NCBI RefSeq assembly: GCF_001956855.1
Contig: NZ_MTHD01000002.1
Location: 558,001-622,000, forward strand
From: Azonexus hydrophilus
GTDB taxonomy: Bacteria; Pseudomonadota; Gammaproteobacteria; Burkholderiales; Rhodocyclaceae
Direction of reading: 5' to 3'
DNA: 64,000 nucleotides
Below the pieces are notes generated by a model. It was not told the origin of the DNA. It saw only the letters and a list, made by a program, of their open reading frames with translations, and did not search any database. Position 1 is the stretch's first letter, and the number at the start of each line of letters is the position of its first letter. Position numbers and translations under genes: made by a program. Below, piece after piece: positions 3,732-64,000 of the stretch.

Positions 3732-4438
3732 TGACCGGCACACTGTTCCTGATTCCTGTCCCGCTCGGCCCGGTGTCGCCGCAGGACAACCTGCACGCCG
3801 GCGTCCTGGCGTGCATCCGTCCTTTGCGCCACTTTGTCGTCGAGCAGGCCAAAACTGCCCGCGCCTTCCTGAAGGCCGCCGGCACCGACTTGCCGTTGCA
3901 GGAATTGCAACTCGAAGAACTGAACGAACATACCCGGGCCGATGCCCTGGATCGCCTGCTCGCGCCGCTGCGCGAGGGTCACGACGTCGGTCTGCTGTCC
4001 GAAGCCGGTTGTCCGGCTGTCGCCGATCCCGGCGCCGATCTGGTAGCGCTGGCCCAGCGCGAGAACATCCGCGTCGTACCGCTGGTCGGCCCCTCGTCGC
4101 TGCTGCTGGCGCTGATGGCTTCCGGGCTCAACGGTCAGCGTTTCGCCTTTCTGGGATATTTGCCCGCCAAGGACGTTGACCGCAACAAGGCGCTGCGCGA
4201 ACTCGAGAGCGAATCACGCAAGCACCGGCAGACGCAGTTATTCATTGAAACGCCTTACCGCAACCGGGCAATGTTCGATGCTGTCCTGCAGGCCTGCCAG
4301 CCGGCGACCCGGCTATGCGTCGCCACCGATCTGACCTTGCCCGGTGAGTCGGTCCGTACGCAAACCATCGCCCAGTGGAAAAAACAAACGCCGCCCGAAA
4401 TCGAGCGGCGTCCGACGGTTTTCCTGCTGCTGGCCTGA
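3731..4438 (+). CDS. SAM-dependent methyltransferase, tetrapyrrole-methylase fold (RsmI-like)
   Basis: A 235-residue protein of the tetrapyrrole methylase superfamily, related to RsmI (16S rRNA C1402 2'-O-methyltransferase) but shorter and divergent at the N-terminus ([13 protein letters not shown]). The family motif LLSEAGCPAVADPGADLV and the following PLVGPSSLLLALMASG segment are present, as is FIETPYRN. It is translationally coupled to maf through a TGATG overlap. Its rRNA substrate is inferred from family; this short paralogue may act elsewhere. It ends immediately before the converging sppA stop. Confidence 0.8.
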   Translation: MTGTLFLIPVPLGPVSPQDNLHAGVLACIRPLRHFVVEQAKTARAFLKAAGTDLPLQELQLEELNEHTRADALDRLLAPLREGHDVGLLSEAGCPAVADPGADLVALAQRENIRVVPLVGPSSLLLALMASGLNGQRFAFLGYLPAKDVDRNKALRELESESRKHRQTQLFIETPYRNRAMFDAVLQACQPATRLCVATDLTLPGESVRTQTIAQWKKQTPPEIERRPTVFLLLA

Positions 4439-5398
4439 TCAGTTCAAACGGACCCCGGAAGCGCTGCTGGAAAATCCGCGCCAGAAGCTGTCGACCGCAC
4501 CAGCGCCGAGGCGCTTGGCAAAACGTTCGGCGATGTTTTCCTTGACCGAGTAGTCAAGCACGTTCTCGAGCTTGACGACATCGCGGGCCACCGACTCGAC
4601 GGTACCGAAATCGTCGGCCAGCCCGAGCTGGATGCTTTGTGCGCCGGTCCACATCAGGCCGGAGAAAATCTCGGGATTGTCCTTCAGGCGTTCGCCGCGT
4701 CCGGCCTTGACGACCTCGATGAACTGCGCATGGATATCGGCCAGCAGAACGCGGGCGTGTGCCTTGTGCTCTTCGGCCTGGGGCGAGAACGGATCAAGGA
4801 AGCCCTTGTTTTCGCCGGCGGTGAGCAGGCGGCGTTCGACGCCGAGCTTTTCCATCGTGCCGGTGAAGCCGAAACCGTCCATCAGCACGCCGATCGAGCC
4901 GACGACGCTGGCCTTGTTGACGTAGATGCGGTCAGCCGCCGCAGCAACGTAGTAGCCGCCGGATGCGCAGACATCCTCAACGACGGCGTAGAGCGGCTTG
5001 TCCGGAAATTTGGCGCGCAGGCGACGGATTTCGTCATTGACCATCCCCGCCTGCACCGGGCTGCCGCCGGGGCTGTTGATGCGCAGCACGACCGCCTGCG
5101 AGTTCGGCGCATCGAAAGCGGCGTTGAGCGCTGAAATCAGGCTTTCGGCACTGGCTTCGGCCTTGGGGGCAATGACGCCTTGCAGGTCGATCATCGCAAC
5201 GTGCTTGTCCTCGACCTTGGTGCTGTCCCATTCGACCATGGCGAACAGGATGAAAGCCAGGTAGCCGAAGCCGAGCAGCTTGAAGAAAATGCCCCAGCGA
5301 CGGCGGGCGCGCTGTTCGCTGAGCGTGGCGAAAGCCAGCTTCTCGAGCGTCTTGCGCTCCCAGGCGGGATCGTTGTCGGGACGTTGGGAATTATCCAT
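4439..5398 (-). CDS. sppA: Signal peptide peptidase SppA-like S49 serine protease
   Basis: Inner-membrane peptidase that degrades cleaved signal peptides. The 319 residues carry one transmembrane anchor (about 36-54) followed by a single S49 domain, the short form rather than the 67-kDa tandem form. The catalytic dyad is visible as Ser146 in CASGGYY and Lys198 in GENKGF, with RINSPGGS forming the oxyanion region. The ATG at 5398 was chosen over an in-frame ATG 42 nt upstream, which lies deeper inside the Rieske gene. Overlap with that gene is 8 nt. Confidence 0.92.
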   Translation of the reverse strand: MDNSQRPDNDPAWERKTLEKLAFATLSEQRARRRWGIFFKLLGFGYLAFILFAMVEWDSTKVEDKHVAMIDLQGVIAPKAEASAESLISALNAAFDAPNSQAVVLRINSPGGSPVQAGMVNDEIRRLRAKFPDKPLYAVVEDVCASGGYYVAAAADRIYVNKASVVGSIGVLMDGFGFTGTMEKLGVERRLLTAGENKGFLDPFSPQAEEHKAHARVLLADIHAQFIEVVKAGRGERLKDNPEIFSGLMWTGAQSIQLGLADDFGTVESVARDVVKLENVLDYSVKENIAERFAKRLGAGAVDSFWRGFSSSASGVRLN

Positions 5399-5750
5399 TT
5401 CTGTTTTCCAGCACCAAAAAGACATTGCCATCGGATTCAATCACCGGCAGGGATTTCAAGCCCCTGCCCTGGCAGCGTCCGCCGAGGCAGCGTCCGCTAT
5501 CCGGTGCATAAAGCGCGCCATGTACGGCGCAAATCAAGTATAGCTTGGAATGATCGAAGAACTCGCCGTGCTGACAATCCAGCTCAACCGGCACATGGGC
5601 GCATTCGTTGAGGTAGGCATGGACGCGACCCCGGTAGCGGATGACGAAGGCGGGAACGTTGCGGCCGTAGCGTTCGACACTGAATCGCACGCCTTTTCCT
5701 GCCTCGGCCAGTTCGCAGCCGGCACAGATCAGGCGTTTGTCTTCAGCCAT
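5391..5750 (-). CDS. Rieske [2Fe-2S] domain protein
   Basis: A 119-residue stand-alone Rieske protein. Cluster ligands are visible as Cys50-x-His52 and Cys74-x-x-His77. It has no signal peptide or membrane anchor, so it is a soluble ferredoxin-like carrier rather than a bc1 subunit. It overlaps sppA by 8 nt and the upstream HAD gene by 22 nt, so the three form a tight operon with rluC. Its electron partner cannot be read from the sequence. Confidence 0.88.
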   Translation of the reverse strand: MAEDKRLICAGCELAEAGKGVRFSVERYGRNVPAFVIRYRGRVHAYLNECAHVPVELDCQHGEFFDHSKLYLICAVHGALYAPDSGRCLGGRCQGRGLKSLPVIESDGNVFLVLENRNG

Positions 5751-6379
5751 GCATCAAGCTCGCGGACGTCGTGCAGGCAGGCCAGCGGCGCATGTTCAAG
5801 CAGATGGTCGTGCGGGTGTGCGCCGTAGGTTACCGCCAGTGCATCGACTCCGGCATTGCGGGCCATCAGCAGATCGTGCGAGGTATCGCCGATCATTACG
5901 GTCGACGCCGGTAAAACGCCAAATTCCGCCATCAGTTCCTCAAGCATTTGCGGGTGCGGCTTGGAGTGGCATTCGTCGGCGCAGCGCGAGGCGGAGAAAT
6001 ATGGACGCAGCGCGGCGTGATCAAAGGCGCGCTCAAGACCCATCCGGCTTTTGCCGGTGGCGACCGCCAGGATGTGACCAGCCGCCTGCAAGCGTGCCAG
6101 CATCGCCGGTACGCCGTCAAACAACGTCAGCTCGTGGTCGCCGGACAGGTAATGGAAGCGGTAACGGTCGATCATCGCCTGGTAGTTCTCCGGCGCCAGA
6201 TCGGGCACCGCGTGCCGCATCGCATCGGCCAGACCGAGGCCGATCACGTGGCTGGCCCGCTCGCGATCGGGTACCGGCAGACCCAGGTCGCGACAGGCGG
6301 CCTGAATGGCCTTGACGATGGCACCGGCGGAATCCAGCAGTGTGCCGTCCCAATCGAAGACCACGAGTTCGTATTTCAT
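5729..6379 (-). CDS. HAD-IA family phosphatase (phosphoglycolate phosphatase-like)
   Basis: A 216-residue HAD hydrolase. Motif I is FDWDGTLLDS, with nucleophile Asp9 and acid Asp11. Motif II is AVATGKS, motif III is the Lys in SKPHP, and motif IV is MIGDTSHDLLMA. The cap domain between motifs I and II is the C1 helical type seen in Gph. The substrate is not determinable from sequence; Gph-like or a pyrophosphatase role is possible. It overlaps rluC by 4 nt (ATGA), the arrangement often seen next to rluC in betaproteobacteria. Confidence 0.87.
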   Translation of the reverse strand: MKYELVVFDWDGTLLDSAGAIVKAIQAACRDLGLPVPDRERASHVIGLGLADAMRHAVPDLAPENYQAMIDRYRFHYLSGDHELTLFDGVPAMLARLQAAGHILAVATGKSRMGLERAFDHAALRPYFSASRCADECHSKPHPQMLEELMAEFGVLPASTVMIGDTSHDLLMARNAGVDALAVTYGAHPHDHLLEHAPLACLHDVRELDAWLKTNA

Positions 6380-7380
6380 TGTTGCTCCAGGATGTGTTGC
6401 AGGTTGTCGGCGACGAATTCGCGCGAATTTGCCGCGTCGACCGCAGCAATGTAGCTACGGATACCATCGGGCAGCGGCGCCACGCACTCCACCGGTGTCC
6501 CCAGCAGCGGATGCCGGAAAGCCATGCGCCAGGCGTGCAGCGCCATCCGTTTCAGGCCGGCCGGCCGCAGCCGCTTGTTGAGATTGAAATCGCCATATTT
6601 TTCGTCGCCAAGAATGGGAAAGCCGAGATGCGCCAGATGCACGCGGATCTGGTGCGTCCGCCCGGTCTTCAACTGTGCCTCAAGCAGGCTCATTTCCGGC
6701 CAGCGGGCGAGCAGCCGGAATACCGTGTGCGATGCCTTGCCCTCGGCGTGCACCGACACCCGGCGCTCGCCGCTGTCGGTCAGGTATTTGAGCAGCGGCG
6801 CCTTGACGTGCTGGGTGTTGTTCATCCAGCGCCCCTTGACCAGCACCAGGTAGCGCTTGTCGGCGCCGGCGCCGTGCTCGCGGAACATGTCGTGCAGCGC
6901 CGTCAGCGCCAGCCGCTTCTTGCCGACCAGCAGGATGCCCGAGGTTTCGCGGTCGAGCCGGTGCGCCAGTTCGAGGAACTTCGCCTGCGGCCGCTGCCGG
7001 CGCAAGGCTTCAATGACGCCAAAGCTGACGCCGCTGCCACCATGCACGGCAATGCCCTCGGGCTTGTCGATGACCAGCATCGCGTCGTCTTCGAAAATGA
7101 TCGGCAGATCGACGCGGGCCTTGGCGGCTTCCTCGACCTCGTTCTGCGGCCGCTCGGCAATGCGGATCGGCGGAATGCGCACATTGTCGCCAAGCTGCAG
7201 GCGATAGGTTGCATCGACACGACCGCTGTTGACCCGCACCTCGCCACTGCGCAGGATGCGATAGACATGGCTCTTCGGCACCCCCTTGCAATGCCTGAGC
7301 AAGTAGTTGTCAAGGCGCTGGCCTTGGGCTTCTTCGCCGATCACGACATGGGTGACCGAATTGTTACCTGCGCCATTCAT
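6376..7380 (-). CDS. rluC: 23S rRNA pseudouridine synthase RluC
   Basis: Converts uridines 955, 2504 and 2580 of 23S rRNA to pseudouridine (E. coli numbering). The order is an N-terminal S4 RNA-binding domain (QRLDNYLLRHCKGVPKSHVYRILRSG split by normal S4 spacing) followed by the RluA-type catalytic domain. The catalytic Asp is in AHRLDRETSG, and KTGRTHQIRVH is conserved. The start at 7380 (MNGAGNNS) was chosen over a start 81 nt upstream, which adds an unconserved basic tail. The gene is divergent from rne, a common neighbour pairing. Confidence 0.95.
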   Translation of the reverse strand: MNGAGNNSVTHVVIGEEAQGQRLDNYLLRHCKGVPKSHVYRILRSGEVRVNSGRVDATYRLQLGDNVRIPPIRIAERPQNEVEEAAKARVDLPIIFEDDAMLVIDKPEGIAVHGGSGVSFGVIEALRRQRPQAKFLELAHRLDRETSGILLVGKKRLALTALHDMFREHGAGADKRYLVLVKGRWMNNTQHVKAPLLKYLTDSGERRVSVHAEGKASHTVFRLLARWPEMSLLEAQLKTGRTHQIRVHLAHLGFPILGDEKYGDFNLNKRLRPAGLKRMALHAWRMAFRHPLLGTPVECVAPLPDGIRSYIAAVDAANSREFVADNLQHILEQQ

Positions 7381-10992: not shown

Positions 10993-13056
10993 TTATTCTC
11001 CATCAGGGTCGTGTCGCGCCGCGCCGAATACCTGTTCCCTGAGTCGGAAAAGTTCGTCGCGTGCAGCCGCCGCTTTTTCGAATTCCAGGTTTTTCGCACA
11101 GTCGAGCATCTGCTTTTCGAGCCGCTTGATTTCCCTGGCGACGGTTTTTTCATCCATGGCTTCGTAGACCGCACGTTGCTGTGCTGCCTTCTGCTCGGTC
11201 TGTGCCGATTCGGCATCGTAGACGCCGTCAATGATGTCCTTGATCTTCTTGGACACCCCTCGCGGGACGATGCCATGCAGTCGGTTGAATGCGATCTGTT
11301 TTTCCCGTCGCCGCTCCGTCTCGGCGATGGCCTTTTCCATGGATTGCGTAATCCTATCAGCGTAAAGGATGGCTGTGCCATGAATATGGCGTGCGGCACG
11401 GCCAATGGTCTGAATCAATGAACGCTCGGAACGCAGGAAGCCTTCCTTGTCGGCATCGAGAATGGCCACCAGCGAAACCTCGGGAATATCGAGACCCTCA
11501 CGCAGCAGGTTGATGCCGACCAGTACGTCGAACTCGCCCAGACGGAGGTCGCGGATGATTTCCACGCGTTCGACGGTGTCGATGTCCGAGTGCAGGTAGC
11601 GCACCTTGATGCTGTTGTCGGCCAGGAAGTCGGTCAGGTCTTCGGCCATGCGCTTGGTTAACGTGGTGACCAGAACGCGCTCGCCAGCGGCGATCCGCTT
11701 GCCGATCTCGCCGAGCAGGTCGTCCACCTGCGTGGACGCCGGACGAACGATGACTTCAGGATCAATCAGACCGGTCGGCCGCGCCACCTGCTCAACCACC
11801 TGCCCTGCGTGCTGGTTCTCGTAATCGGCGGGTGTTGCCGAGACGAAAACGGTCTGGCGCATGTGCCGCTCGAACTCGTCGAACTGCAGCGGCCGGTTGT
11901 CCAGCGCCGACGGCAGGCGGAAACCGTAATCGACCAGGTTTTCCTTGCGCGAACGGTCACCCTTGTACATGCCACCGACCTGCCCGATGCTGACATGAGA
12001 CTCGTCGATGAACATCAACGCGTCGCGTGGCAGATAGTCGATCAGCGTCGGCGGTGATTCCCCGGGCTGGCGGCCGGAAAAGTGTCGGGAGTAGTTTTCG
12101 ATGCCTTTGCAGAAACCGATCTGATCAAGCATCTCGAGGTCGAAGCGGGTGCGCTGTTCTATCCGCTGTGCTTCGACCAGCTTGTTGTTGCGGGTGAAGA
12201 ATTCGATCCGCTCGCGCAACTCCTGCTTGATCGCCTCGATCGCGCGCACGACGGTGGCGCGCGGCGTCACGTAGTGCGACGCCGGGAAAACCGTGAAGCG
12301 CAGCGCCTTGTGCAGCAATTGTCCGGTCAACGGGTCAAAAAACTGCAAATTCTCGATCTCGTCGTCAAACAGCGAAACGCGGATCGCATGCTCGGCATGT
12401 TCGGCCGGGAAGATATCGATGACGTCACCGCGCACGCGGAAGATGCCGCGATGGAAATCCATCTCGTTGCGCTCGTACTGCATGTCGGTCAGGCGCTTGA
12501 CGATGTCGCGCTGATCCAGCTTGTCGCCGACGCGCATGGTCAGGATCATGTTGTGGTATTCGTCGCGATCACCGATGCCGTAGATGCACGACACCGTCGC
12601 CACGATCACCACGTCACGCCGCTCGATCAGGCTTTTCGTTGCACTCAGCCGCATCTGTTCGATGTGATCGTTGATCGAGCTGTCCTTTTCGATGAACAGG
12701 TCGCGCGATGGCACATAGGCTTCGGGCTGGTAGTAATCGTAATAGGAGACGAAGTATTCGACGGCGTTCTCCGGGAAGAACTCCTTGAATTCCGAATACA
12801 ACTGCGCTGCCAGCGTCTTGTTCGGCGCCAGTACCAGCGCCGGACGACCGGTCCGGGCAATGACGTTGGCCATCGTGTAGGTCTTGCCCGATCCGGTTAC
12901 GCCCAGGAGTGTCTGGAAGGACAAACCGTCCTCGACACCCTCGACGAGAAGGCGGATGGCCTCAGGCTGGTCACCGGCGGGTGGGAATGGCTGATGCAAA
13001 CGATACGGGCTGCCATCGAAACACACGACGGGAGTGCTGCTGTTGGTTTCGCTCAT
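10993..13056 (-). CDS. uvrB: Excinuclease ABC subunit B
   Basis: DNA-damage verification helicase-like subunit of nucleotide excision repair. 687 residues from MSETNSST, after discarding an 11-codon upstream extension. Walker A is [10 protein letters not shown], followed by the beta-hairpin region ([12 protein letters not shown]), helicase motifs including DESHVS and QTIGRAARH, and the C-terminal UVR motif ([24 protein letters not shown] split). No clear LexA box of CTGT-N8-ACAG type was seen upstream. It is divergent from the aminotransferase gene, with a strong palindrome in the 75-bp gap. Confidence 0.97.
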
Positions 13057-13131: not shown

Positions 13132-14337
13132 ATGTCCTCTTCGATCTTCGCTGCGGTGGAAATGGCCCCGCGCGACCCCATTCTCGGTCTGAATGAAGCC
13201 TTCAACGGCGATGCGCGCGACACCAAGGTCAACCTCGGCGTCGGCGTCTACTTCGACGACAACGGCAAGATCCCGCTGCTGGCTGCCGTCAAGGCCGCCG
13301 AGGAAACCCGCCTGAAGGCCGCACCGCCGCGTGGTTACCAGCCGATCGAAGGACCGGCTGCCTACAACACCGCGGTCCAGAACCTGCTGTTCGGCAAGGA
13401 TTCCGACCTGCTCGCCGCCGGCCGCGTGATCACCGCCCAGGCCATCGGTGGTACCGGCGCACTGAAGATCGGCGCCGACTACCTGAAGCGCCTGAATCCG
13501 GAAGCCAAGGTTTACATCAGCAACCCGTCCTGGGAAAACCACCGCGCCCTGTTCGAAGCCGCCGGTTTCATCGTCGAGGATTACGCTTACTACGATGCAG
13601 GCACCCGTGGCGTGAATTTCGCCGGCATGAAGGCCGACCTGAACAAGATGGCACCGGGCTCCGTCGTGCTGCTGCACGCCTGCTGCCACAACCCGACCGG
13701 CGCCGACATGAGCGACGCCCAGTGGGCAGAAGTCGTTGGCATCTGCCAGGAACGCGGCTTGGTGCCCTTCCTTGATATGGCCTATCAGGGCTTTGCCGAT
13801 GGCATCGACGCTGATGCCGTGGCGATCCGCGCTTTCTCCGCCTCCGGCCTGCAGTTCTTCGCCTCCAGTTCGTTCTCCAAGAACTTCTCGCTGTACGGTG
13901 AGCGTGTCGGCGCGCTGTCCGTTGTCACCGCCTCCAAGGAAGAGTCGGCGCGCGTTCTGTCGCAGGTCAAGCGCGTCATCCGCACCAACTATTCCAACCC
14001 GCCGATTCATGGTGGTGCGCTGGTTGCCGCCGTTCTCGCCTCCGGCGAATTGCGTGCCCAGTGGGAAACCGAACTGGCCGGCATGCGCGATCGCATCCGC
14101 GCCATGCGCGCCGGTCTGGTTGATGCCATCAAGGCCACCGGCTGCGCCCAGGACTTCTCCTTCGTTGCCCAGCAACGCGGCATGTTCTCCTATACCGGCC
14201 TGACCGCCGCCCAGGTTGAGCGGATGAAGGAAGAATTCGGCATCTACGCCGTGTCGACCGGCCGCATCTGCCTGGCTGCGCTTAACACAAAAAATCTGGA
14301 TTACGTCGCCAAGGCCATCGCTGCCGTGACCAAGTAA
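13132..14337 (+). CDS. Class I aspartate/aromatic aminotransferase
   Basis: PLP-dependent transaminase, 401 residues, of the AspC/TyrB family. It starts MSSSIFAAVEMAPRDPILG, and the sequence KVNLGVGVYFDDNGKIP is typical of this subgroup. The PLP-binding Lys250 is in SSFSKNFSLYGERVG, and HACCHNPTGAD gives the Asn that contacts the cofactor. Aspartate versus aromatic preference cannot be fixed from sequence. A good RBS (GGAG) precedes the ATG, and a terminator follows, so it is probably monocistronic. Confidence 0.93.
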   Translation: MSSSIFAAVEMAPRDPILGLNEAFNGDARDTKVNLGVGVYFDDNGKIPLLAAVKAAEETRLKAAPPRGYQPIEGPAAYNTAVQNLLFGKDSDLLAAGRVITAQAIGGTGALKIGADYLKRLNPEAKVYISNPSWENHRALFEAAGFIVEDYAYYDAGTRGVNFAGMKADLNKMAPGSVVLLHACCHNPTGADMSDAQWAEVVGICQERGLVPFLDMAYQGFADGIDADAVAIRAFSASGLQFFASSSFSKNFSLYGERVGALSVVTASKEESARVLSQVKRVIRTNYSNPPIHGGALVAAVLASGELRAQWETELAGMRDRIRAMRAGLVDAIKATGCAQDFSFVAQQRGMFSYTGLTAAQVERMKEEFGIYAVSTGRICLAALNTKNLDYVAKAIAAVTK

Positions 14338-17513: not shown

Positions 17514-19391
17514 ATGGCCGTTGCCCGCTCTCCCTGGTCGTCATCGTTGCAGCGTCCGCTTCTGGCAGCCGGTCTGCTGCTGGCGGCGGCAACCGGTCTG
17601 TTGCTCAATCTTGTACAACCGGGCCTTTTTTCCAGTGCCTTGCTTGTTTCTGCGGGTCTTGCCCTGCTCTGGCTTGGTTACGTCGAATACCAGCATTTCC
17701 GCTCGATCTCGCAGGCCTACGATCTTGCCATGCAGGCGGCTCACGATGGGTTCTGGAACTGGAACCCTGTTACCAAGAAATTGCAGGTTGGTTCCCGCTT
17801 GTTGCAGATACTCGGCTACCGCCAGGATTTTCTGCCCGACACCCATGCTTGGCTGAGACTGGTGCATCCGGACGATGTGGCTTTTTACAATCGCGCCGTG
17901 GCACGCCATATTAAGGGTGAAACGGATCACTTCTACTGCGAGTACCGGGTGCTGGCCAGTGATGGACAGTATCGCTGGATTGCTTCCCGTGGTCTGGCCG
18001 TGCGTGATGGACGGGGAACCGCTTACCAGATGGTCGGTTCGGTGACGGACATCACGGAGCGGCGCCAGCATCAGGAAGAGCTGGAGTTTCTTGCCCAGCA
18101 CGACGTGTTGACCGGTTTGCCGAACCGACTGTTGTTTGCCGAGCATCTGCAGGCGGCAATCACTGAGGGCCGTGAACAAACACATCGTCTTGCCGTGCTT
18201 TTCATCGACCTCGACCGTTTCAAGAACATCAACGATACCTTGGGGCACCGTGCTGGTGACCAGATGCTGCAAACGGTCTCGATGACGCTAAGGGCAAGCC
18301 TGCCGGCCAATTGTCGTCTGTATCGCCAGGGCGGCGACGAATTCATTGTCTTGATCAATCCATTGCCGGCAGGTACCGATGCCATGGATATTGCACTGAA
18401 AATCAAGGAGCAGATCACCGAGCCGATTGCGGGTGGCGAAAACGACTTTTTCACCAGTGCCAGTATCGGCGTCAGTCTCTTCCCGGATGATGCAGGCGAC
18501 GGGGAGACATTGCTGCGTCACGCCGACACGGCAATGTATGCTGCGAAAGCCGTCGGCGGAAATGCCATACGCTTTCATACCGCCCAGATGGATCAGCGAG
18601 TCAGTTTGCGCATGTCGCTGGAAACCAGGCTACGCAAGGCTTTGCAGGAAAACCAGTTCGAATTGTATTTCCAGCCGCAGGTTGCCGCCGAAGATGGCCG
18701 CCTGGTCGGCGCCGAAGCCTTGCTGCGCTGGCATGACGGGGATTCGATGATTCCGCCGGATCAGTTCATTCCGGTTGCTGAGGAATGTGGTTTGATCGTG
18801 CCGATTGGTGAATGGGTGATTGCCCGGGCTGTCGGCCAGATTGCCGAGTGGCGCAATCGCCATGCGCTGGTACCGCCGATCGCCATCAATCTTTCACCAC
18901 GTCAGTTCTGGCGCCCTTCGGTGTCGCATTGCATTCTTGACGCGCTGAACTTTGCCGGTCTGCCAACGTCGGTACTTGAAGTCGAGATCACGGAGTCCGT
19001 GGTGCTTGATCCTGAAGGCGACAGCATCGAGCAGCTGGGACGGTTGCGTGAAGCCGGGATCGGTATTGCGCTCGATGATTTCGGTACCGGCTATTCTTCC
19101 CTCTCCTATCTGCAGCGACTGCCGGTTGGCGTTTTGAAGATCGATCGCTCCTTCATCAAGTCGCTGGTCGTCGACGAAGGCGCGGCGGGCAGCGAGCCAC
19201 TGGTGCGCGCGATCATCGCCATGGCGCACAGCCTTTCGTTGAAAGTGGTTGCCGAAGGCGTGGAAACGCCCGAACAGCTACAGGCCTTGAGATATCTTGG
19301 CTGCGACATTATTCAGGGCTACCTGTTCAGCCGACCGCTCGCGCCAGGTGAATTTGCCGAAAAATACCTGGTTGACCGCAAGAATCCATAA
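17514..19391 (+). CDS. Membrane PAS-GGDEF-EAL protein (c-di-GMP turnover)
   Basis: A 625-residue cyclic-di-GMP protein. Two predicted membrane segments (about 13-33 and 38-55) are followed by a PAS fold (65-185, ending in the PAC-type VTDITERR), a GGDEF domain with intact GGDEF at 273-277, and an EAL domain with EAL at 401-403 and DDFGTGYSS further on. No RxxD inhibitory site precedes GGDEF. Both catalytic signatures are intact, so it may be bifunctional or mainly a phosphodiesterase. It begins 17 nt after moaA and may be cotranscribed. Confidence 0.93.
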   Translation: MAVARSPWSSSLQRPLLAAGLLLAAATGLLLNLVQPGLFSSALLVSAGLALLWLGYVEYQHFRSISQAYDLAMQAAHDGFWNWNPVTKKLQVGSRLLQILGYRQDFLPDTHAWLRLVHPDDVAFYNRAVARHIKGETDHFYCEYRVLASDGQYRWIASRGLAVRDGRGTAYQMVGSVTDITERRQHQEELEFLAQHDVLTGLPNRLLFAEHLQAAITEGREQTHRLAVLFIDLDRFKNINDTLGHRAGDQMLQTVSMTLRASLPANCRLYRQGGDEFIVLINPLPAGTDAMDIALKIKEQITEPIAGGENDFFTSASIGVSLFPDDAGDGETLLRHADTAMYAAKAVGGNAIRFHTAQMDQRVSLRMSLETRLRKALQENQFELYFQPQVAAEDGRLVGAEALLRWHDGDSMIPPDQFIPVAEECGLIVPIGEWVIARAVGQIAEWRNRHALVPPIAINLSPRQFWRPSVSHCILDALNFAGLPTSVLEVEITESVVLDPEGDSIEQLGRLREAGIGIALDDFGTGYSSLSYLQRLPVGVLKIDRSFIKSLVVDEGAAGSEPLVRAIIAMAHSLSLKVVAEGVETPEQLQALRYLGCDIIQGYLFSRPLAPGEFAEKYLVDRKNP

Positions 19392-39692: not shown

Positions 39693-39723
39693 GCGTTGAC
39701 CGCAGGATTTCTGCGGTCAACGC
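39693..39723. repeat. Perfect 13-bp inverted repeat formed by two iterated words
   Basis: Arms at 39693-39705 (GCGTTGACCGCAG) and 39711-39723 (its exact reverse complement) with a 5-nt loop GATTT. It lies in frame within the NRDE gene. Each arm contains the word GTTGACCGCA/TGCGGTCAAC that is dispersed over the window. Confidence 0.85.
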
Positions 39724-40165: not shown

Positions 40166-42320
<2,155 letters not shown>

Positions 42321-44119: not shown

Positions 44120-44121
44120 CC

Positions 44122-45883: not shown

Positions 45884-47518
45884 TCATTCCCACTCGATCG
45901 TCGCCGGCGGCTTGCCCGAGACGTCGTACACCACCCGGTTCAGTCCGCGCACTTCGTTGATGATGCGGTTGGAAACGCGACCGAGCAGTTCGTACGGCAG
46001 ATGCGCCCAGTGCGCGGTCATGAAATCGCTGGTAACGACGGCACGCAGCGCGACGACGTTTTCGTAGGTGCGGCCGTCGCCCATGACGCCGACGCTCTTG
46101 ACCGGCAGGAAGACGGCGAAGGCCTGGCTGGTCAGGTCATACCAGGTCTTGCCGATATCGGCCTCGGTGCAGGCACCGGCGGCGACATCGCGCTCGCTTG
46201 CTACGGTCGACCGCAATTCATCGATGAAAATGGCGTCGGCGCGTTGCAGCAGGTGCGCCGCCTTCAGCGTGACTTCGCCAAGGATCCGCACCCCCAGGCC
46301 CGGACCCGGGAACGGATGACGATAGACCATCTCGCGCGGCAGGCCGAGGGCGACACCGAGTTCGCGGACTTCATCCTTGAACAGTTCGCGCAGCGGTTCG
46401 AGCAGCTTCAGATGCATGTCTTCCGGCAGGCCGCCGACATTGTGGTGGCTCTTGATCGTGTGGGCGCCCTTCTTGCCCTTGCCGGCCGACTCGATCACAT
46501 CCGGGTAGATGGTGCCCTGGGCCAGCCATTTGGCCGACACCAGTTTCTTTGATTCGGCCTGGAAGACTTCGACGAATTCCTTGCCGATGATCTTGCGCTT
46601 CTGTTCCGGGTCGGAAACCCCGGCCAGCTTGCCCATGAAGTCGTCGACAGCATCGACGCGGATGACCTTGACGCCGAGATTGCGCGCGAACATGTCCATG
46701 ACCATGTCACCTTCGTTCAGGCGCAGCAGGCCGTGATCGACGAAGACGCAGGTCAGCTGGTCGCCGATGGCGCGGTGGATCAGTGCCGCCGCAACGCTCG
46801 AATCGACACCACCGGAGAGACCGAGGATGACATCATCGCTGCCGACTTGGGCGCGGATAGAGGCCACCGCTTCGGCGATGTAGTCGCCCATGACCCAGTC
46901 AGTGCCACAGCCGCAGATGCCGTGCACGAAGCGTTCGAGGATGGCACGGCCCTGCAGCGTGTGGGTGACTTCAGGGTGGAACTGGACGGCGTAGAACTTG
47001 CGCGCCTCGTCAGCCATCGCCGCGATCGGGCAGGACGGCGTCGACGCCATGGTCTTGAAACCGGGCGGCAGTTCCATCACCGAATCACCGTGACTCATCC
47101 ACACCTTGAGCATGCCGTGACCTTCGGCCGTGGTGAAATCGGCGATGTCGTTCAACAGCGCCGTATGGCCGTGCGCACGGACTTCCGAATAACCGAATTC
47201 GCGTGCCTTGCCGGCCGCTTCGGCGGTCATTACCTGGCCGCCGAGCTGCTGCGCCATCGTCTGCATGCCGTAGCAGATGCCCAGCACCGGGACGCCCAGT
47301 TCAAAGACGACCTTCGGTGCACGCGGTGTGTCGCCTTCGGTCACCGAGTTCGGACCGCCGGACAGGATGATGCCCTGCGCGCCATAGCTGCGGATGAACT
47401 CGTCGGAAACGTCGTACGGATGGATTTCGCAGAAGACCTTGGCTTCACGCACGCGACGGGCGATCAGTTGGGTGACCTGGGAACCGAAATCGAGGATGAG
47501 GATTTTCTGATGGGACAT
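45884..47518 (-). CDS. guaA: GMP synthase (glutamine-hydrolysing)
   Basis: Converts XMP to GMP. 544 residues from the ATG at 47518 ([23 protein letters not shown]); a GTG two codons upstream is also in frame. The GATase domain has nucleophile Cys in [15 protein letters not shown]. The ATP-pyrophosphatase P-loop is [11 protein letters not shown], and the C-terminal dimerisation domain contains [16 protein letters not shown]. It follows guaB with a terminator-like hairpin in the 60-nt gap. The C-terminal end [16 protein letters not shown] is complete. Confidence 0.97.
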
Positions 47519-47578: not shown

Positions 47579-49616
<2,038 letters not shown>

Positions 49617-52675: not shown

Positions 52676-53461
52676 TTACTCAAACATGTGCGACTGACCA
52701 GCCTCACGCAGCAAGCGCCTGGCGAACAGCAGGTCCTCCCAGGCTTTCGCCTTGTCGGGCAAATTACGCAGCAGATAGGCCGGGTGGTAGGTCACGGCCA
52801 CCGGGATGCCGGCATGCTCGAAACGGCGTCCGCGCATCGCAGCCAGGGATTTGTCCTCGCCCAGTACCGAATGGACGGCCGCCTTGCCCAGCAGGACGAT
52901 CACCTTCGGCTTGAGCAAGGTAATCTGACGCTCCAGCCACGGCCGGCAGGCGGCCATTTCTGCAGCCTCCGGCGTGCGGTTGCCAGGTGGCCGGCACTTC
53001 ACCGCATTGGCGATGTAAACCTTTTCGCCACGAGCGATGCCGAGAGATGCCAGCATCGCATCCAGCAACTTGCCGGCCTGGCCGACGAAAGGCTCGCCCC
53101 GCACATCCTCTTCCGCACCGGGGCCTTCGCCGATGAACAGCCAGTCCGGTTTCAGGTCGCCGACCCCGGGCACAGCCTGCTTGCGCTGCTGGCAAAGAAT
53201 GCAGGCGCTGCATTCCCGTATCCCCTGCTGCAATTCCGGCCATCCCAGACCGTCGACCGCAGGCGTCGGCCTCAATACCGGTGCCTCGCCTGCGCCGGCC
53301 ACAACCGGCAGTGCTACAGCTGTCACTGCAACAGATGCAGCGGCCTCGGCAATTGGCGCCGGTGTTTCTTCCTGCTCCAAAGCAGCGCGGGCGTCATCAC
53401 GCAGGACCCACTGAGGCGTTATGCCCATTTCGGCGAGCATCTGTTCGCGGTTCAGGCTCAT
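52676..53461 (-). CDS. Uracil-DNA glycosylase, family 4 (Fe-S type)
   Basis: Base-excision glycosylase for uracil, 261 residues. Residues 1-75 are an Ala/Val/Pro-rich linker with MLAEMGITPQWVLR at the start. The UDG4 core follows: ECSACILC starts the [4Fe-4S] cluster, GEGPGAEEDVRGEPFVG is motif 1, NAVKCRPPGNRTP is motif 2, and VTYHPAYLLR is motif 3. It overlaps rimI by 4 nt. The rimI-UDG pairing is common in beta- and gammaproteobacteria. Confidence 0.94.
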   Translation of the reverse strand: MSLNREQMLAEMGITPQWVLRDDARAALEQEETPAPIAEAAASVAVTAVALPVVAGAGEAPVLRPTPAVDGLGWPELQQGIRECSACILCQQRKQAVPGVGDLKPDWLFIGEGPGAEEDVRGEPFVGQAGKLLDAMLASLGIARGEKVYIANAVKCRPPGNRTPEAAEMAACRPWLERQITLLKPKVIVLLGKAAVHSVLGEDKSLAAMRGRRFEHAGIPVAVTYHPAYLLRNLPDKAKAWEDLLFARRLLREAGQSHMFE

Positions 53462-55103: not shown

Positions 55104-55832
55104 ATGAACGAAACCAACCAGCACATCCTCGTCGTCGATGACGACGCCCGCCTGCGTGACCTGCTCACCCGCTATCTCGGTGAGCAGGGATTTGTCGTCA
55201 AGGCCGTCGGTGACGGCCAGCAGATGGACAAGGCGCGCAGCCGCGAACATTACCACCTGATCGTCCTCGACCTGATGATGCCGGGCGAAGACGGCCTGTC
55301 GATCTGCCGCCGCCTGCGCGGCCAGGGCGACCGGACGCCGATGATCATGCTGACGGCCAAGGGCGACGAGGTCGACCGCATCGTCGGTCTGGAAATGGGC
55401 GCCGACGATTACCTGCCCAAACCCTTCAATCCGCGCGAACTGCTGGCGCGCATCCACGCCGTGCTGCGCCGGCAGGGCAACATGCCGCCGGGAGCACCGG
55501 AAGATGCCCAGGAGACAGCCCGTTTCGGCAACATCGAGGTTGATTATTCAGCACGCACGCTCAAGCGCGGCGATGAAACCCTGCCGCTGACGACCGGCGA
55601 ATTCGCCGTGCTCAAGGTGCTGCTCCAGCACCCGCGCCAGCCGCTGTCGCGCGACAAGCTGATGACGCTGGCCCGCGGTCGCGAACAGGGGCCGTTCGAC
55701 CGCGCCATCGACGTCCAGGTTTCCCGGCTGCGCAAGCTCATCGAAAACGACCCGTCGCAGCCGCGCTACCTGCAGACGGTGTGGGGCTTCGGCTACGTCT
55801 TCATGCCTGACGGCGCCGCCCGGGAAAACTGA
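55104..55832 (+). CDS. OmpR-family response regulator
   Basis: 242 residues: receiver with Asp56 in LIVLDLMMPGEDG, Lys in DDYLPKPFNP, and a C-terminal winged helix (LPLTTGEFAVLKVLLQHPRQ and DVQVSRLRKLIENDP, the OmpR signature). Start ATG at 55104 (MNETNQHILVVDDD). TGATG overlap with the kinase ensures coupled expression. Close to OmpR in length and spacing. Confidence 0.93.
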   Translation: MNETNQHILVVDDDARLRDLLTRYLGEQGFVVKAVGDGQQMDKARSREHYHLIVLDLMMPGEDGLSICRRLRGQGDRTPMIMLTAKGDEVDRIVGLEMGADDYLPKPFNPRELLARIHAVLRRQGNMPPGAPEDAQETARFGNIEVDYSARTLKRGDETLPLTTGEFAVLKVLLQHPRQPLSRDKLMTLARGREQGPFDRAIDVQVSRLRKLIENDPSQPRYLQTVWGFGYVFMPDGAAREN

Positions 55833-57130
55833 TGCCGCGCTCGCTGCTGGCGCGTACCTTCCTGCTGCTGGCGATCCTGGTACTGCTGAGTACGGCGGGC
55901 TGGCTGGCGCTGTTCAGCCACATCGACGCCGAACCGCGGGCGCGCGAATCGGCGAACATGGCGACTTCTGCGGTCAACCTGATTCGCGCCTCGCTTTTTG
56001 CCGCCGCCCCGGACAAACGTCCCGGCCTGTTTGCCGAGTTTTCGTCGCGCGAGGGCATACGCCTGTTGCCAGCCGAACCGCAGGACGACATCCTGCCGAT
56101 GCCCGATTCGCGTTTTCATCAGTTGATGCGAGAGGCAGTCGTCGCCCGCCTCGGCCCGGCGACCCGGATCGCCGCCGAGGTTAACGGCGAACCGGGTTTC
56201 TGGATCAGCTTCCGTTTCGACGAACGGGATGACGACGAGTTCTGGCTGGTCCTCCCGCGCGAGCGCGCCCGGAGCGGTTTTGCCGCGCGCTGGCTGAGTT
56301 GGGCGGCGCTGGCCGTTGCCCTCGCCCTGCTCGTCGCCTGGCTGATTGCCTCACGCATCAGCCGGCCGCTGAAAGCGATGGCCCGGTCGGCACAGGCCGT
56401 TGGTCGGGGGCAGACACCGTCGCCGCTACCCGAGGATGGCGCTGAGGAAATGCGGGCGCTGGCAACGGCATTCAACGTCATGGCTGCCGATCTGGCGCGC
56501 CATGAGAAGGATCGCTCGGAAGTGCTGGCCGGCATTTCGCACGACCTGCGCACGCCGCTGACCCGGCTGCGCCTGGAAGCGGAAATGAGCGTGGCCGATG
56601 AAGCCGCTCGCCAGGGCATCGTTGCCGACATCGAGCAAATGGAAGCCGTGATTTCGCAATTCATGGATTACGCGCGGGCCGAGTCCGGCGAACAGCCGGA
56701 AGTCACCGATCTGGCCGCGCTGCTCGCCGGTATCGGCGAGCGCCAGGCGGCAATCGGCCGTGGTCTGGAAATTGACCTCGACGGCGTGTCGACCGCAATA
56801 ATCCGCCCGCGTGCCATCGGCCGCGCCGTCGTCAATCTGCTCGACAACGCGTGGAAATACGGCGGCGGTGCGATCAGTTTGAAAGCTGTTGCGGTCGACC
56901 ACGAAATCCGCATCGAAATCGCCGACCGCGGCCCGGGCATTCCGGCCGCCGAGATGGAACGCCTGAAGCGCCCGTTCACCCGGCTGGAAAACGCCCGCAC
57001 CGATGCCAGCGGAACCGGGCTCGGCCTGGCCATCGTCGAGCGCATCGCCCAGTTGCACGGCGGCCAGCTGGTGCTGCTGGCGAACCCGGGTGGCGGCCTG
57101 CTGGCGCGACTGGTGCTGCGCGCTGCCTGA
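55832..57130 (+). CDS. EnvZ-type sensor histidine kinase
   Basis: 432 residues. A transmembrane helix at about 7-28, a periplasmic sensor of about 120 residues and a second helix near 153-173 are followed by HAMP, then the HisKA domain with phospho-His237 in GISHDLRTPLTRLRLE. The ATPase domain has N-box VNLLDNAWKYG and G1 IADRGPGIP. The substrate sensed is not known. Three copies of the iterated word occur here, in different frames. Confidence 0.94.
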   Translation: MPRSLLARTFLLLAILVLLSTAGWLALFSHIDAEPRARESANMATSAVNLIRASLFAAAPDKRPGLFAEFSSREGIRLLPAEPQDDILPMPDSRFHQLMREAVVARLGPATRIAAEVNGEPGFWISFRFDERDDDEFWLVLPRERARSGFAARWLSWAALAVALALLVAWLIASRISRPLKAMARSAQAVGRGQTPSPLPEDGAEEMRALATAFNVMAADLARHEKDRSEVLAGISHDLRTPLTRLRLEAEMSVADEAARQGIVADIEQMEAVISQFMDYARAESGEQPEVTDLAALLAGIGERQAAIGRGLEIDLDGVSTAIIRPRAIGRAVVNLLDNAWKYGGGAISLKAVAVDHEIRIEIADRGPGIPAAEMERLKRPFTRLENARTDASGTGLGLAIVERIAQLHGGQLVLLANPGGGLLARLVLRAA

Positions 57131-57136: not shown

Positions 57137-60115
57137 TCAGCCGATGAAACGGCTGATATCGACCTCGTCGATCTGTTCCGGTTTCAGGAAGCGTTCGGCG
57201 TACGCACGGTAAATGCCGGACGTCAGGAACAGATCAAACAGCACCGGATCGATATGCTGGTCCTTCTTGAAGAAGGAAAGGATCTTGATCGATTCCGACA
57301 GTGTCTTCATCGGCTTGTACGGCCGGTCCGACGCCGTCAGCGCCTCGAAGATGTCGGCAATGGCCATGATCCGCGACGGGATGGACAGCTCGTCGGCGGT
57401 CAGCCGGCGCGGATAGCCGGTGCCGATCATCGTCTCGTGGTGGGTGCCGGCGTACTCTGGCACCCGACGCAGGGATTTTGGCAAGGGCAGCTTTTCCAGC
57501 ATCTGGATGGTCTGGATGATGTGCTCGTTGATCTTGAAGCGTTCCTCGTCGGTCAGGGTGCCACGGGCAATGGCCAGGTTGTAGACTTCGCCGAAGTTGT
57601 AGAGGTTTTCCGGCACCGTGACCCGCCAGCCATGCGCCGGGTCGAATGTCTGGCGGCCCGGCTCGCGCGGAACCACGTGCCACGGCTTGTCAGCCAGCAG
57701 GTTTTCGCGGACGGGCAAGGGCTGCACTGGAGATTGGCCACGCCGGCGGATTTCTTCCTGCGACAGGCCGAGGGTGTCGTCGAAATGGCGCAGCCAGGTT
57801 TCTTCGGCAATCCGCCCGACGCGCGCCATTTTTTCCGGCGCCATGAACTCGCCGCCGATATTGGCGTCGGCGACGAAAGCGAAATCATCAAGCAGTTGTT
57901 CCCGACGTTCGGCAAAGCGGGCGTCGGCTGTTGCCACATCGTCACCGCGCTCGTGGATTGCCTGCAGACGTTCGATTTCGGCATCCCGCAGCAGGACCTC
58001 GAAGCGCGTGCGTATTTCATGAATGCGGTTATAGATCGTTTCCAGTTTGGTGGCTTTGTCGACCACGTATTCCGGTGTCGTCACCTTGCCGCAATCATGC
58101 AGCCAGGCGCCAATGCGGAATTCACGCCACTCCTCTTCGCTGGCGAAACGGAAATTTGCCAGCGGGCCGCTGTCGACCGCAGAAGCCGCTTCGGCCAGCA
58201 TCATTGCCAGTTCCGGCACGCGTTCGCAATGGCCGCCGGTATACGCGCTCTTGGCATCGATGGCGCCGGCCACCAGCTTGATCAGGGCGTCCATCAACAG
58301 CTTCTGCGACTCGAGCAGATTGACGTTCTCCAGCGTAACCGCCGATTGCGCGGCCAGGGCCTCGACGAAACTTACCAGTTCCGGGGTGAAGGGAATGACC
58401 GCCCCGCTCTCGGGGTCGAGTGCGTTCATCAATTGCAGCACCCCGATGACTTCACCGTCACGCGGCGACAGCGGGATGGTCAGCATCGACACCGCGCGCA
58501 TGCCGGTTTTCTCGCTGAACTGCATGGTCCCCGAAAGATCGAAGCGGGTGTCTTGATAAACGTCGTCGATGACGACTGTTTCGTTGTTCAATGCCACGTA
58601 GGTCGATACGTACCCGGTCATCGGCGCACCGCTTACCGGGTCGTGCAGCGGTACCTCGAAATCGTGCAGGTCATCGCTCGCGGTACGCAGGGCGAAGCGC
58701 AGCGTATCGTGCTCGGTTTTCAGATACAGCGTCGCCGCCGCGCAACGGGAAATTTCCTGGGCGCTGTTCAGGATATGGCGCAGCAGTGTCTCGCGGTTTT
58801 TTTCCCGCGACAGCATCAGACCGCTTTCAACCAGGCGCTGCAGTTTGTCCTGGGCGATGTTCAACGCCGTGGTACGGTCCCGGATCGAGTGCTGCAGGAC
58901 GATCTGGGCATCGCCCAGGGCATTGATCTCGTAGAGGAACGACGCCGGCTGCTGCGGCTCGACGGAGAAATCCAGGCGCTTCAGGCGCTCCGAATTCCGT
59001 GCCAGGGCGGCGAGTGAATGGACCACCCGACGCGAGCCGAGCAAGGCCAGTGGCACCAGCAGCAAGGTGATGCCGATCGATACCGCCATCACGTCGCCGC
59101 GCGCTTTCTCGATCGGGCCGGAAAAGTCGCTGATCGGGGCCATGGCGATGACAGTGAAACGGGCGCCCGGGAAAGCTTCGCTCAACTGGCGGACAACGAC
59201 GAAATCTGCCGCCTTGCCGGATTGTTCGAGCTTCAGAACAGCCGCGCCATCCTGTTTCTCCTGTTTGGACAGCCCTTGCAAGGTCGGGTCGGAGATGGCG
59301 TCGAGCCGGGTCAGCGGCGCAATCGCCAGCGTGGAAAAACGCTGGCCACGCAGACTGTAGGCAATCACCCGGTCGTCTCCGTCAAGCAGCATGATGGCTG
59401 CATTGGGCGACAAGGGCAGTTCGCCGAGAAAGCCCTGCAGTCGGGAAAGATTGATATCGACGGCAAATACGCCGGCCTGGCCGGTCACCGCCCGGGAGAT
59501 GGTCAGGCCAAGCTCACCGGTCGAAGCAAAGAGATAGGGCGCCGTCACGGCCAGTCCGGACTGTTGCATCGCACTCTGGAACCACGGTCGCGAGCTTGGC
59601 GCAAATTGCGCTGCATTTTCACGACTGGCCAGCAATTGACGATGCTGGTCGAGAAATGTCCAGCGCTCTTGCCGGCCACCACCCGCTGCTGTCGTGATCC
59701 GACGGATGGCAAACCAGGTATCTGCGGGCGCCTTCAGTGTCTCGATCAGGCGGCTGTTGCCACGTATCCCGATAGCCTGAACGAATCCGTCATCGGGCAA
59801 GCCGAAATACTGGCCATAAAAATCGGGATTCACCGCCAGTGAAGCGATCAGTTCCGGCACTGCACCATCCGGATCGAAGGCCCGGCGGTCTTCGGCACGA
59901 TTGCCAACGATCAGCCCCGCCTTGCCCACCAGTTCTCCGGTGGCTTCGATCGACTGCCGGGCCAGCAGCGAAAAGCGCTCGCGGGCATTGTCTTCCATCA
60001 TCGACTGGAACTTGCCGAAGACGGTAAACAGAAAACCGGCGGTCAGCGACAGGACGATCAGGATCAGTACCGACAATACCCAGTACTGAAAACGGAACTG
60101 GAACCTTGCGGGCAT
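57137..60115 (-). CDS. Membrane sensor with dCache-like, GAF and HD-GYP domains
   Basis: A 992-residue protein. A transmembrane helix (about 13-35) is followed by a long periplasmic sensor, probably dCache (36-345), a second helix near 347-367, HAMP, a GAF domain (about 430-590) and a C-terminal HD-GYP phosphodiesterase. The catalytic HD is His673-Asp674 in HDCGK. The second metal and GYP region is HHETMIGTGYP (His892 onward), in which the usual Asp before Gly is Ile. About 150 extra residues separate these two parts. It is c-di-GMP hydrolysis by family; activity with the altered motif is unproven. Confidence 0.85.
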   Translation of the reverse strand: MPARFQFRFQYWVLSVLILIVLSLTAGFLFTVFGKFQSMMEDNARERFSLLARQSIEATGELVGKAGLIVGNRAEDRRAFDPDGAVPELIASLAVNPDFYGQYFGLPDDGFVQAIGIRGNSRLIETLKAPADTWFAIRRITTAAGGGRQERWTFLDQHRQLLASRENAAQFAPSSRPWFQSAMQQSGLAVTAPYLFASTGELGLTISRAVTGQAGVFAVDINLSRLQGFLGELPLSPNAAIMLLDGDDRVIAYSLRGQRFSTLAIAPLTRLDAISDPTLQGLSKQEKQDGAAVLKLEQSGKAADFVVVRQLSEAFPGARFTVIAMAPISDFSGPIEKARGDVMAVSIGITLLLVPLALLGSRRVVHSLAALARNSERLKRLDFSVEPQQPASFLYEINALGDAQIVLQHSIRDRTTALNIAQDKLQRLVESGLMLSREKNRETLLRHILNSAQEISRCAAATLYLKTEHDTLRFALRTASDDLHDFEVPLHDPVSGAPMTGYVSTYVALNNETVVIDDVYQDTRFDLSGTMQFSEKTGMRAVSMLTIPLSPRDGEVIGVLQLMNALDPESGAVIPFTPELVSFVEALAAQSAVTLENVNLLESQKLLMDALIKLVAGAIDAKSAYTGGHCERVPELAMMLAEAASAVDSGPLANFRFASEEEWREFRIGAWLHDCGKVTTPEYVVDKATKLETIYNRIHEIRTRFEVLLRDAEIERLQAIHERGDDVATADARFAERREQLLDDFAFVADANIGGEFMAPEKMARVGRIAEETWLRHFDDTLGLSQEEIRRRGQSPVQPLPVRENLLADKPWHVVPREPGRQTFDPAHGWRVTVPENLYNFGEVYNLAIARGTLTDEERFKINEHIIQTIQMLEKLPLPKSLRRVPEYAGTHHETMIGTGYPRRLTADELSIPSRIMAIADIFEALTASDRPYKPMKTLSESIKILSFFKKDQHIDPVLFDLFLTSGIYRAYAERFLKPEQIDEVDISRFIG

Positions 60116-63453: not shown

Positions 63454-63459
63454 GGCCGA

Positions 63460-64000
63460 CTACGCGTGCGCCTGCCCGGCGGCGAAGGGATAGCTTGCGA
63501 GCACGCGATAATTCGAGCCCGCTGCTGACAACTGCGAACGGACCAGGACGAAACCCTGGCAGTGCCAGTCACGCGCAGGTGCCAGCGGTTTTTCCGGCGG
63601 TATCCGCTGGGCCTTGCGCAGCAAGGTGACATGCGGGAAAAATGCCGATTTTCTGCGGTCGACCGAAAAATTGCCGGCAATCAGCCGTTCGCGCAGCAAC
63701 CCGGCGAGTTCGCCGAGCGCTGGCGGCGGCGCGGTGAAACCCGCCCAGACGATATCGTTGTGCGCCCAGCCGGCAACACGGTCGAGTCTCAGGTCAAAGG
63801 CCGGGAGCGAAATACCGCGCGCTGCGGCGGCCAATTCTTCCAGGCGGGATTCGGCGACATTGCCGACGAAAGCCAGCGTCAGGTGAACCGTCCCGGCTCG
63901 GGTCGGTCGACCGCCGCAACTGGCGGCGAGTTCAGCCGCCAGCCCGGCCAGGTCGTCGGCGACTGCGGTCGACGGCCATAAAGCGAAGAAAACGCGGGCG
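63460..64000 (-). CDS. thpR: RNA 2',3'-cyclic phosphodiesterase (LigT/ThpR), 5' end cut off
   Basis: 2H phosphoesterase superfamily. The gene runs off the right edge and lacks only the first few codons. The two HxT motifs are visible: HLTLAFVGN in the first half and HVTLLRK in the second. RVFFALWP at the window edge is the family N-terminus. It hydrolyses RNA 2',3'-cyclic phosphates in vitro. It converges with the cyclase gene, 6 nt between stops. Two iterated word copies lie inside. Confidence 0.9.
   Translation of the reverse strand, partial: ARVFFALWPSTAVADDLAGLAAELAASCGGRPTRAGTVHLTLAFVGNVAESRLEELAAAARGISLPAFDLRLDRVAGWAHNDIVWAGFTAPPPALGELAGLLRERLIAGNFSVDRRKSAFFPHVTLLRKAQRIPPEKPLAPARDWHCQGFVLVRSQLSAAGSNYRVLASYPFAAGQAHA

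Follow-up and report, generated by a model that had tools for sequence, protein, structure and literature searches.

Why should one ten-base word recur, on both strands, along a 64,000-nucleotide stretch of the Azonexus hydrophilus genome? That stretch, the window in what follows, is 558001-622000 of contig 10 (C10) in a source genome (G000) of 3,596,517 bases and 17 contigs, and between its positions 4175 and 63973 we count 22 copies of TGCGGTCRAC, 14 as TGCGGTCGAC and 8 as TGCGGTCAAC, with 9 on the plus strand and 13 on the minus. From comparisons of sequence, we put at about 0.78 the probability that this word is the core of a candidate DNA uptake sequence. It would be best explained as working like the uptake signal sequences (USS) of Pasteurellaceae and the DNA uptake sequences (DUS) of Neisseriaceae while belonging to neither, as a third lineage beside them. 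The word is balanced between strands, lies mostly within genes, has a strict core and dialects, occurs patchily, is maintained at orthologous positions and is scarce in mobile DNA; together these traits fit an uptake sequence best.

The word and its site

The iteration had been noticed in an original prediction made from the window alone, whose count of 21 copies (13 + 8) gives way to 22 (14 + 8); its estimate of fewer than one expected copy agrees with 100 dinucleotide shuffles of the window, which hold 0.60 words on average and 3 at most. The pattern it described in the heptamer TGCGGTC also persists with corrected figures, RAC following in 22 of 29 rather than in 21 of about 27. Against an order-4 Markov model, TGCGGTCGAC ranks first among the window's 10-mers (14 vs 0.65), and in a 444-kb part of the genome that includes the window both forms of TGCGGTCRAC head the 10-mers under an order-5 model (101 vs 7.0 and 40 vs 3.0). 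The genome-wide count that had been proposed as a check gives 1297 copies (659 forward and 638 reverse), about one per 2.8 kb, and 38 (21 + 17) of the reversed word, our control for composition.

Placement was followed in a sample of 198 copies from 604 kb, window included, or about 17% of the genome. Strands divide 94/104 and loci are homogeneous (chi-square 26.2, 26 loci, p = 0.45), with individual loci as skewed as 9/3 and 2/9, and the spread over the sampled loci is near-random (index of dispersion 1.19 per 5 kb). By a crude in-house gene call, 153 of the 198 (77%) fall in coding sequence, where random placement gives 81%, and 43 lie between called genes; 76 are sense and 77 antisense to their genes, in several frames, and 66 of the 76 sense copies share one common frame. 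Copies within genes in different frames were rightly reported in the original prediction, and its claim that selection acts on the DNA word itself is supported.

A logo of the flanks, also proposed earlier, reveals a longer site of ~29 bp, with A/T tracts in phase, of which the word is the core. Positions are counted from the T of TGCGGT, taken as 1. The site is made up of CGGTCRAC, 15 free bases and an A/T tract that hardly varies, joined by weaker A/T patches of the same phase; we count it as the composite CGGTCRAC-N15-WWWW. Among the 198 copies, the A/T share at positions 26-29 is 80, 96, 96 and 93%, over a sample background of 39% and 35-43% at the tract positions of 138 scrambled-word places. 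In the same copies T occupies position -2 in 78% and C position 13 in 63%; A/T makes up 62 and 69% at -4 and -3 and 67-68% at 17-18, and 22-23 favour G/C. Position 0 is C or T in 88% of 141 copies. Little is conserved before about -8 or beyond about 31, and the A/T run beyond the core has no 3-periodicity. Spaced ~21 and 9-10 bases apart, the patches at about -3, 18 and 27 would lie on roughly one face of the helix.

When mismatches were scored, the tract was used to tell real sites independently of the word. It is complete at 145 of 198 perfect words and at 52 of 106 words with a single mismatch at positions 1-2, but at only 10 of 161 with one at positions 3-10, for which the reversed control gives 4 of 158; since the tract is kept with mismatches at 1-2 and not at 3-10, the fixed part is CGGTCRAC plus tract, with positions 1-2 variable. 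Perfect words outnumber inner-core single mismatches in the sample (198 vs 161), and the composite occurs 1234 times in G000 against 10 for its reversed control. Of the window's 22 words, 13 show A/T at every one of the four tract positions and 20 at three or more; nine further places combine the core and a full tract with a different 5' pair. These sites are as follows (dialect pair, word position where TG, and A/T positions in the tract):

4156..4184, minus: TG site, word 4175-4184, tract 4/4
4471..4499, minus: TG site, word 4490-4499, tract 4/4
5897..5925, plus: variant site, 5' TA, tract 4/4
6417..6445, minus: TG site, word 6436-6445, tract 3/4
12322..12350, plus: variant site, 5' TC, tract 4/4
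14234..14262, minus: possible variant site, 5' GC, may be chance, tract 4/4
19352..19380, minus: TG site, word 19371-19380, tract 4/4
22714..22742, minus: TG site, word 22733-22742, tract 4/4
29428..29456, plus: possible variant site, 5' CC, may be chance, tract 4/4
34502..34530, plus: TG site, word 34502-34511, tract 4/4
38788..38816, minus: TG site, word 38807-38816, tract 4/4
39676..39704, minus: TG site, word 39695-39704, tract 3/4; inverted pair with 39712..39740
39712..39740, plus: TG site, word 39712-39721, tract 4/4
40162..40190, minus: possible variant site, 5' GG, may be chance, tract 4/4
40559..40587, plus: TG site, word 40559-40568, tract 4/4
42685..42713, plus: TG site, word 42685-42694, tract 3/4
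44096..44124, minus: variant site, 5' CA, tract 4/4
44794..44822, plus: TG site, word 44794-44803, tract 4/4
45449..45477, plus: variant site, 5' TA, tract 4/4
46187..46215, minus: TG site, word 46206-46215, tract 2/4; overlaps the plus-strand TA site 46202..46230
46202..46230, plus: variant site, 5' TA, tract 4/4
49126..49154, minus: TG site, word 49145-49154, tract 4/4
53233..53261, minus: TG site, word 53252-53261, tract 3/4
55352..55380, minus: TG word, weak or chance, word 55371-55380, tract 1/4
55969..55997, plus: TG site, word 55969-55978, tract 3/4
56769..56797, minus: TG site, word 56788-56797, tract 4/4
56890..56918, plus: TG site, word 56890-56899, tract 3/4
58153..58181, minus: TG site, word 58172-58181, tract 4/4
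63639..63667, minus: variant site, 5' TT, tract 4/4; overlaps 63654..63682
63654..63682, plus: TG site, word 63654-63663, tract 3/4
63964..63992, plus: TG site, word 63964-63973, tract 4/4

From 22742 to 34502 there is no TGCGGTCRAC; this stretch overlaps a type VI secretion cluster in DNA of lower G+C (21536-33863, with matches to a ClpV-like AAA protein, TssG, TssF, VipB, VasE/TssK and DotU), and the gap may reflect later acquisition. Among the 198 sampled words we also find 12 perfect palindromes, TGCGGTCGACCGCA, each formed by two overlapping opposite words (L031, L035, L040, L043, L045, L121, L122, L123, L126). Eight lie outside called genes, and they may be double sites or parts of terminators.

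Genomes, dialects and orthologous positions

We counted the composite in 76 genomes of Azonexus/Dechloromonas, a genus assigned by scanning named genomes for IspH, calling rich those with 391-1785 copies. Forty are rich, 8 hold 88-159 copies and 28 hold 9-60, with reversed controls at 4-31. Across the order, 399 genomes were counted, 6 of them of this genus, and all of the other 393 have 37 composites or fewer; elsewhere in the family, the bare word reaches at most 81 in any of 194 genomes from other genera, and a full-tract composite appears twice in the 63 named loci (L159-L221) that lie beyond the 17 closest. Among the genomes counted, then, the composite is restricted to the genus Azonexus/Dechloromonas. 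The same tract appears in 50 copies from rich G246 and in 76 copies of the CA dialect (see below) from G147 and G249; 14 copies from poor genomes are 43-64% A/T there and perhaps include relics.

On a DNA tree of a single gene, IspH, with 32 of the 76 genomes and 4 outgroups, the rich label changes 9 times (shuffled mean 12.3), 3 changes being forced by strongly supported branches; G062, with 989 composites, and G203, with 105, are sisters (99/98). Because counts can be intermediate and A/T patches are discernible at the sites of G200, repeated loss is the simpler reading, though gains may have contributed. A de novo word search in seven poor Azonexus genomes (40-60 kb each) found none prominent.

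The two bases 5' of the core are a species-level dialect. TGCGGTCRAC dominates in G246 (1630; CA 281), G000 (1297; CA 121), G258 (1269) and others, and CACGGTCRAC in G249 (1302; TG 92) and G147 (1243; TG 117); the CA form outnumbers the TG form in several more genomes, e.g. G229, G205 and G209. Genomes G201 and G202, with near-highest composite counts (1720 and 1639), have few TG or CA words, and their sampled sites (17 and 9; L117, L118, L223) have no clear 5' preference, perhaps a third, relaxed dialect; per-genome consensuses often come from fewer than 10 sites.

Comparison across related genomes, another check proposed at the outset, was made by BLASTN of sampled loci between species at no more than 85% identity, dropping gapped windows. 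Where a rich partner was aligned (112 distinct sites), an intact core is seen in 69% of partners on average; where the partner was poor or intermediate (62 sites), in 9%. These 112 come from 40 loci, many near ispH, and are therefore non-independent, but the paired contrast, in which the sites are identical, gives 77% in rich partners against 8.5% in poor ones (55 sites with both kinds); random 8-mers drawn from these alignments stay identical in 21 and 22%. At kept sites compared between TG- and CA-dialect genomes, the commonest pairs are TG/TA (23), TG/CA (21), CG/CA (20) and TG/TG (18), with pair-and-base combinations counted once per direction and dialect groups assigned from word counts. 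Such mixed 5' pairs indicate that the dialect bases changed while the site stayed.

Uptake genes, mobile elements and rival explanations

In a search for competence genes, also proposed at the outset, ComEC is matched in 75 of the 76 genomes (68 above cut-off), ComEA exceeds its cut-off in 67 and a PF16732 (ComP_DUS) pilin is found in 70; rich and poor genomes are not separated by these genes, and comEC is split in the window strain. In G246, which has the highest composite count (1785), comEC is matched in a single frame over model positions 59 to 663. G000 has a fimT-pilV-pilW-pilX-pilY1-pilE cluster next to ispH, in which pilV, pilW, pilX and pilY1 take their names from their position rather than from a match to a family. 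Its PF16732 pilin, with four cysteines, lies between pilY1 and ispH, and a GspH/FimT-type pilin is also present; in a search of solved structures with PilE and FimT the best matches were generic pilins, with P. aeruginosa PilE (4noa) lower. The PF16732 pilin varies strongly in the genus, at about 30-69% identity to that of G000, where IspH has 72-91% (L051-L080, L103-L241).

A mechanism can be proposed along these lines. A surface component of the type IV pilus, probably a minor pilin, would bind CGGTCRAC and the 5' dialect bases, and the phased A/T tracts would make the DNA pliable enough to bend or kink while the pilus draws it in by way of the outer-membrane secretin; from there ComEA and ComEC would bring it inward, and homologous recombination would then spread site-bearing alleles, since site-bearing DNA would be taken up more often. 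Such biased uptake would explain the accumulation of sites, their persistence at orthologous positions, dialect change in place, their absence from mobile elements and their decay after a loss of uptake or of its specificity.

Mobile DNA bears on this through comEC, the uptake-channel gene, which is found split in at least 11 of the 76 genomes, with breaks at several different points. In G000 it lies over two contigs (C10:855627-856886 and C17:32473-33087; L242, L243), and in G199, G206, G207, G229, G241, G243, G245, G250, G267 and G268 its parts are 2-65 kb apart on one contig (loci of the other split genes: L244-L259). The two breaks examined closely involve differing element types: that of G000 is near matches to Mu-transpos_C (TniA-like), TniB and TniQ, and that of G229 adjoins a large serine recombinase. 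Together, the comEC elements of rich G000, G207, G229 and G243 hold 1 composite against 41.7 expected (0, 0, 0 and 1 in 42.7, 48.5, 33.7 and 43.3 kb, against 14.7, 11.2, 6.4 and 9.4 from genome averages), counting the G000 element as its two contig ends and leaving out rich G253, whose comEC parts lie on two contigs. That mobile elements can stop transformation by inserting into competence genes is known (PMC4774983), and Piscirickettsia comEC is likewise reported as interrupted by transposable elements (PMC12955456).

Several results weigh against an uptake function. Five of the 40 rich genomes (G220, G227, G232, G248 and the single-contig G266) have no ComEA above cut-off, and what matches ComEA more weakly is a protein some 800 aa long. 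As the cause of the rich/poor difference, the presence of ComEC or ComEA finds no support. Co-variation with the PF16732 pilin did not yield a receptor either: judged by eye in 55 genomes (57 were tried, G222 and G252 gave none, and 19 of the genus were left out), no pattern of cysteines, charge or type sorts richness, and pilins are much alike in the sisters G062 (989) and G203 (105) but very different in the rich sisters G201 and G202. Because an element splits comEC in G000, the A. hydrophilus strain of the window is probably not transformable at present. Breakage of comEC was also tried as the cause of word loss and is not supported, 5 of 13 broken genomes being rich against 35 of 63 others (p = 0.36), with the frame-shifted G217 and two-contig G253 counted as broken and parts at contig ends as unbroken. 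Lastly, word density in the G000 sample climbs with G+C, from 0.0 per 5 kb in 6 bins below 54% to 2.6 in 5 bins above 66%, and the comEC elements are poorer in G+C than the chromosome, so that composition may add to their scarcity of sites.

The same observations admit other readings. The word could be the binding site of a chromosome-organising or nucleoid-associated protein, selected for chromosome structure as are matS, Noc, SlmA or parS-type sites. What would suit such a protein is the length and strictness of the non-palindromic consensus, its A/T tracts and its near-random spread (dispersion 1.19), and also that the competence genes examined are alike in rich and poor genomes. Few or no sites in 36 of 76 species and 9 rich/poor changes are, however, odd for a chromosome function, dialect bases vary between species, and regulator sites are described as more relaxed in consensus (PMC1626085), where inner-core near-matches here are close to chance. 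We consider this account unlikely. A recombination or segregation signal would share with our site its shortness, frequency and many copies in genes, but Chi and KOPS are strand-biased along each replichore and are not known to have an A/T tract of such a kind; with strands at 94/104, no locus-level bias beyond chance (26 loci), a 76/77 split to genes and the tract as part of the site, a signal of this type is very unlikely.

Recognition by a modification or restriction enzyme might be suspected from a C5 methylase gene in the element piece on contig 17. That gene sits in a stretch without composites, though, restriction normally selects against its sites, and no methylase target type with an asymmetric 8-10 bp core and an A/T tract is known, all of which makes this reading extremely unlikely. 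The 12 overlapping inverted pairs TGCGGTCGACCGCA among the 198 words might instead suggest a mobile or copied repeat (REP or MITE-like) spread by transposition, which we hold to be very improbable: little is conserved outside about -8..+31, 77% of copies are in called genes in several frames, and many sites align with an intact core in other species (gap-free windows only). A by-product of composition or codon preference (Ala-Val-Asp, Val-Asp-Arg, Ser-Thr-Ala) would account for the 66 of 76 sense copies in one frame and for density rising with G+C, but it is scarcely credible given only 38 reversed words, at most 37 composites in 393 other-genus genomes and 9-159 in 36 of the same genus, a tract that is a run without 3-periodicity, and 43 of 198 copies between called genes. 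Of the four functions first suggested for the word, then, DNA uptake fits best, and a methylase, a nucleoid protein or a mismatch-biased replicative process fit worse.

Known uptake words

Likeness to iterated uptake words had been suggested from the start and is supported: several traits found here are listed for known uptake sequences in PMC1626085, a strict consensus among them. The resemblance to the Pasteurellaceae signal goes further than the shared letters first noted. Like USS (Hin-type AAGTGCGGT, Apl-type ACAAGCGGT), whose GCGGT is common to the TG dialect, our site has a strict core with few near-misses and no orientation bias; two A/T-rich segments follow the core, spaced by about one turn of the helix, and dialects vary in the bases directly 5' of an inner core that is conserved (PMC1626085, PMC12616744). 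The register differs, with Azonexus segments at 17-19 (weak) and 25-29 (strong) against about 8-13 and 20-25 in Hin, a shift of ~5-8 as converted from a figure in PMC1626085. Unlike USS, moreover, the Azonexus/Dechloromonas site belongs to another family, extends its core 3' (CGGTCRAC), is less dense, has an additional 5' A/T patch at -4 to -2 and, in the CA dialect CACGGTCRAC, has ACGG in place of the GCGG inner core.

Neisseriaceae DUS (GCCGTCTGAA and dialects) likewise differ in dialect between related species (PMC12616744). They are tied to core rather than foreign genes (PMC4212676, from Treangen 2008), as Azonexus sites appear to be, and overlapping dyad pairs occur in Simonsiella DUS as here (PMC3630211). 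In contrast, the sequences are unrelated, ours has no CTG inner core, and it has A/T tracts where DUS are described as free of flanking motifs (PMC1626085). As for the receptors ComP and ComN, ComP has two disulfides (PMC12616744) and the G000 PF16732 pilin four cysteines; pilin type has no visible link to word richness in the 55 genomes.

Uptake words are described from two families, Pasteurellaceae and Neisseriaceae, whose species live mainly on mucosal surfaces (PMC7811141, PMC1626085). Verminephrobacter eiseniae, a betaproteobacterium of Burkholderiales with type IV pili, gave competition data suggesting sequence-limited uptake, with no word named in the account of it in PMC4212676. Among the matches listed in a literature search with subscription journals and preprints largely outside its scope, none reports, in its title or the opening of its abstract, an uptake word for Rhodocyclaceae; the best 12 of 383 matches to the most direct query contain no uptake term, and six word forms searched in paper texts as whole words, which would miss occurrences inside longer strings, gave no match.

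Taken as a whole, the genomic patterns make it likely that the genus has a third, separately evolved self-DNA recognition for transformation, with a USS-like design, in-place dialect rewriting, repeated loss and word-poor elements that attack comEC. If so, it would be a third case of uptake words, this time from environmental bacteria for which 76 species genomes, sisters that differ in richness and a number of dialects are available; Azonexus/Dechloromonas include phosphate-storing sludge species (PMC12455942). The origin of such words, the recurrence of A/T tracts, the joint change of a specificity and a thousand sites, and whether uptake words help purge mobile elements would become testable, and the word might offer a practical tag for transforming these bacteria.

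Named loci of at least 15 kb, some of them from Azonexus, were scanned for enriched 8-10-mers that might be uptake words of other genera, the 40 ranked best being considered; the test is a weak one, since among its Azonexus loci only L147 shows its word clearly. Loci L203, L204, L206 and L219 have different iterated words: in unrelated betaproteobacteria, AATCCGAAAT occurs 17 times in L203 (20.9 kb) and CGGCAATGAC 8 times in L206 (18.8 kb), both possibly tandem or domain repeats.

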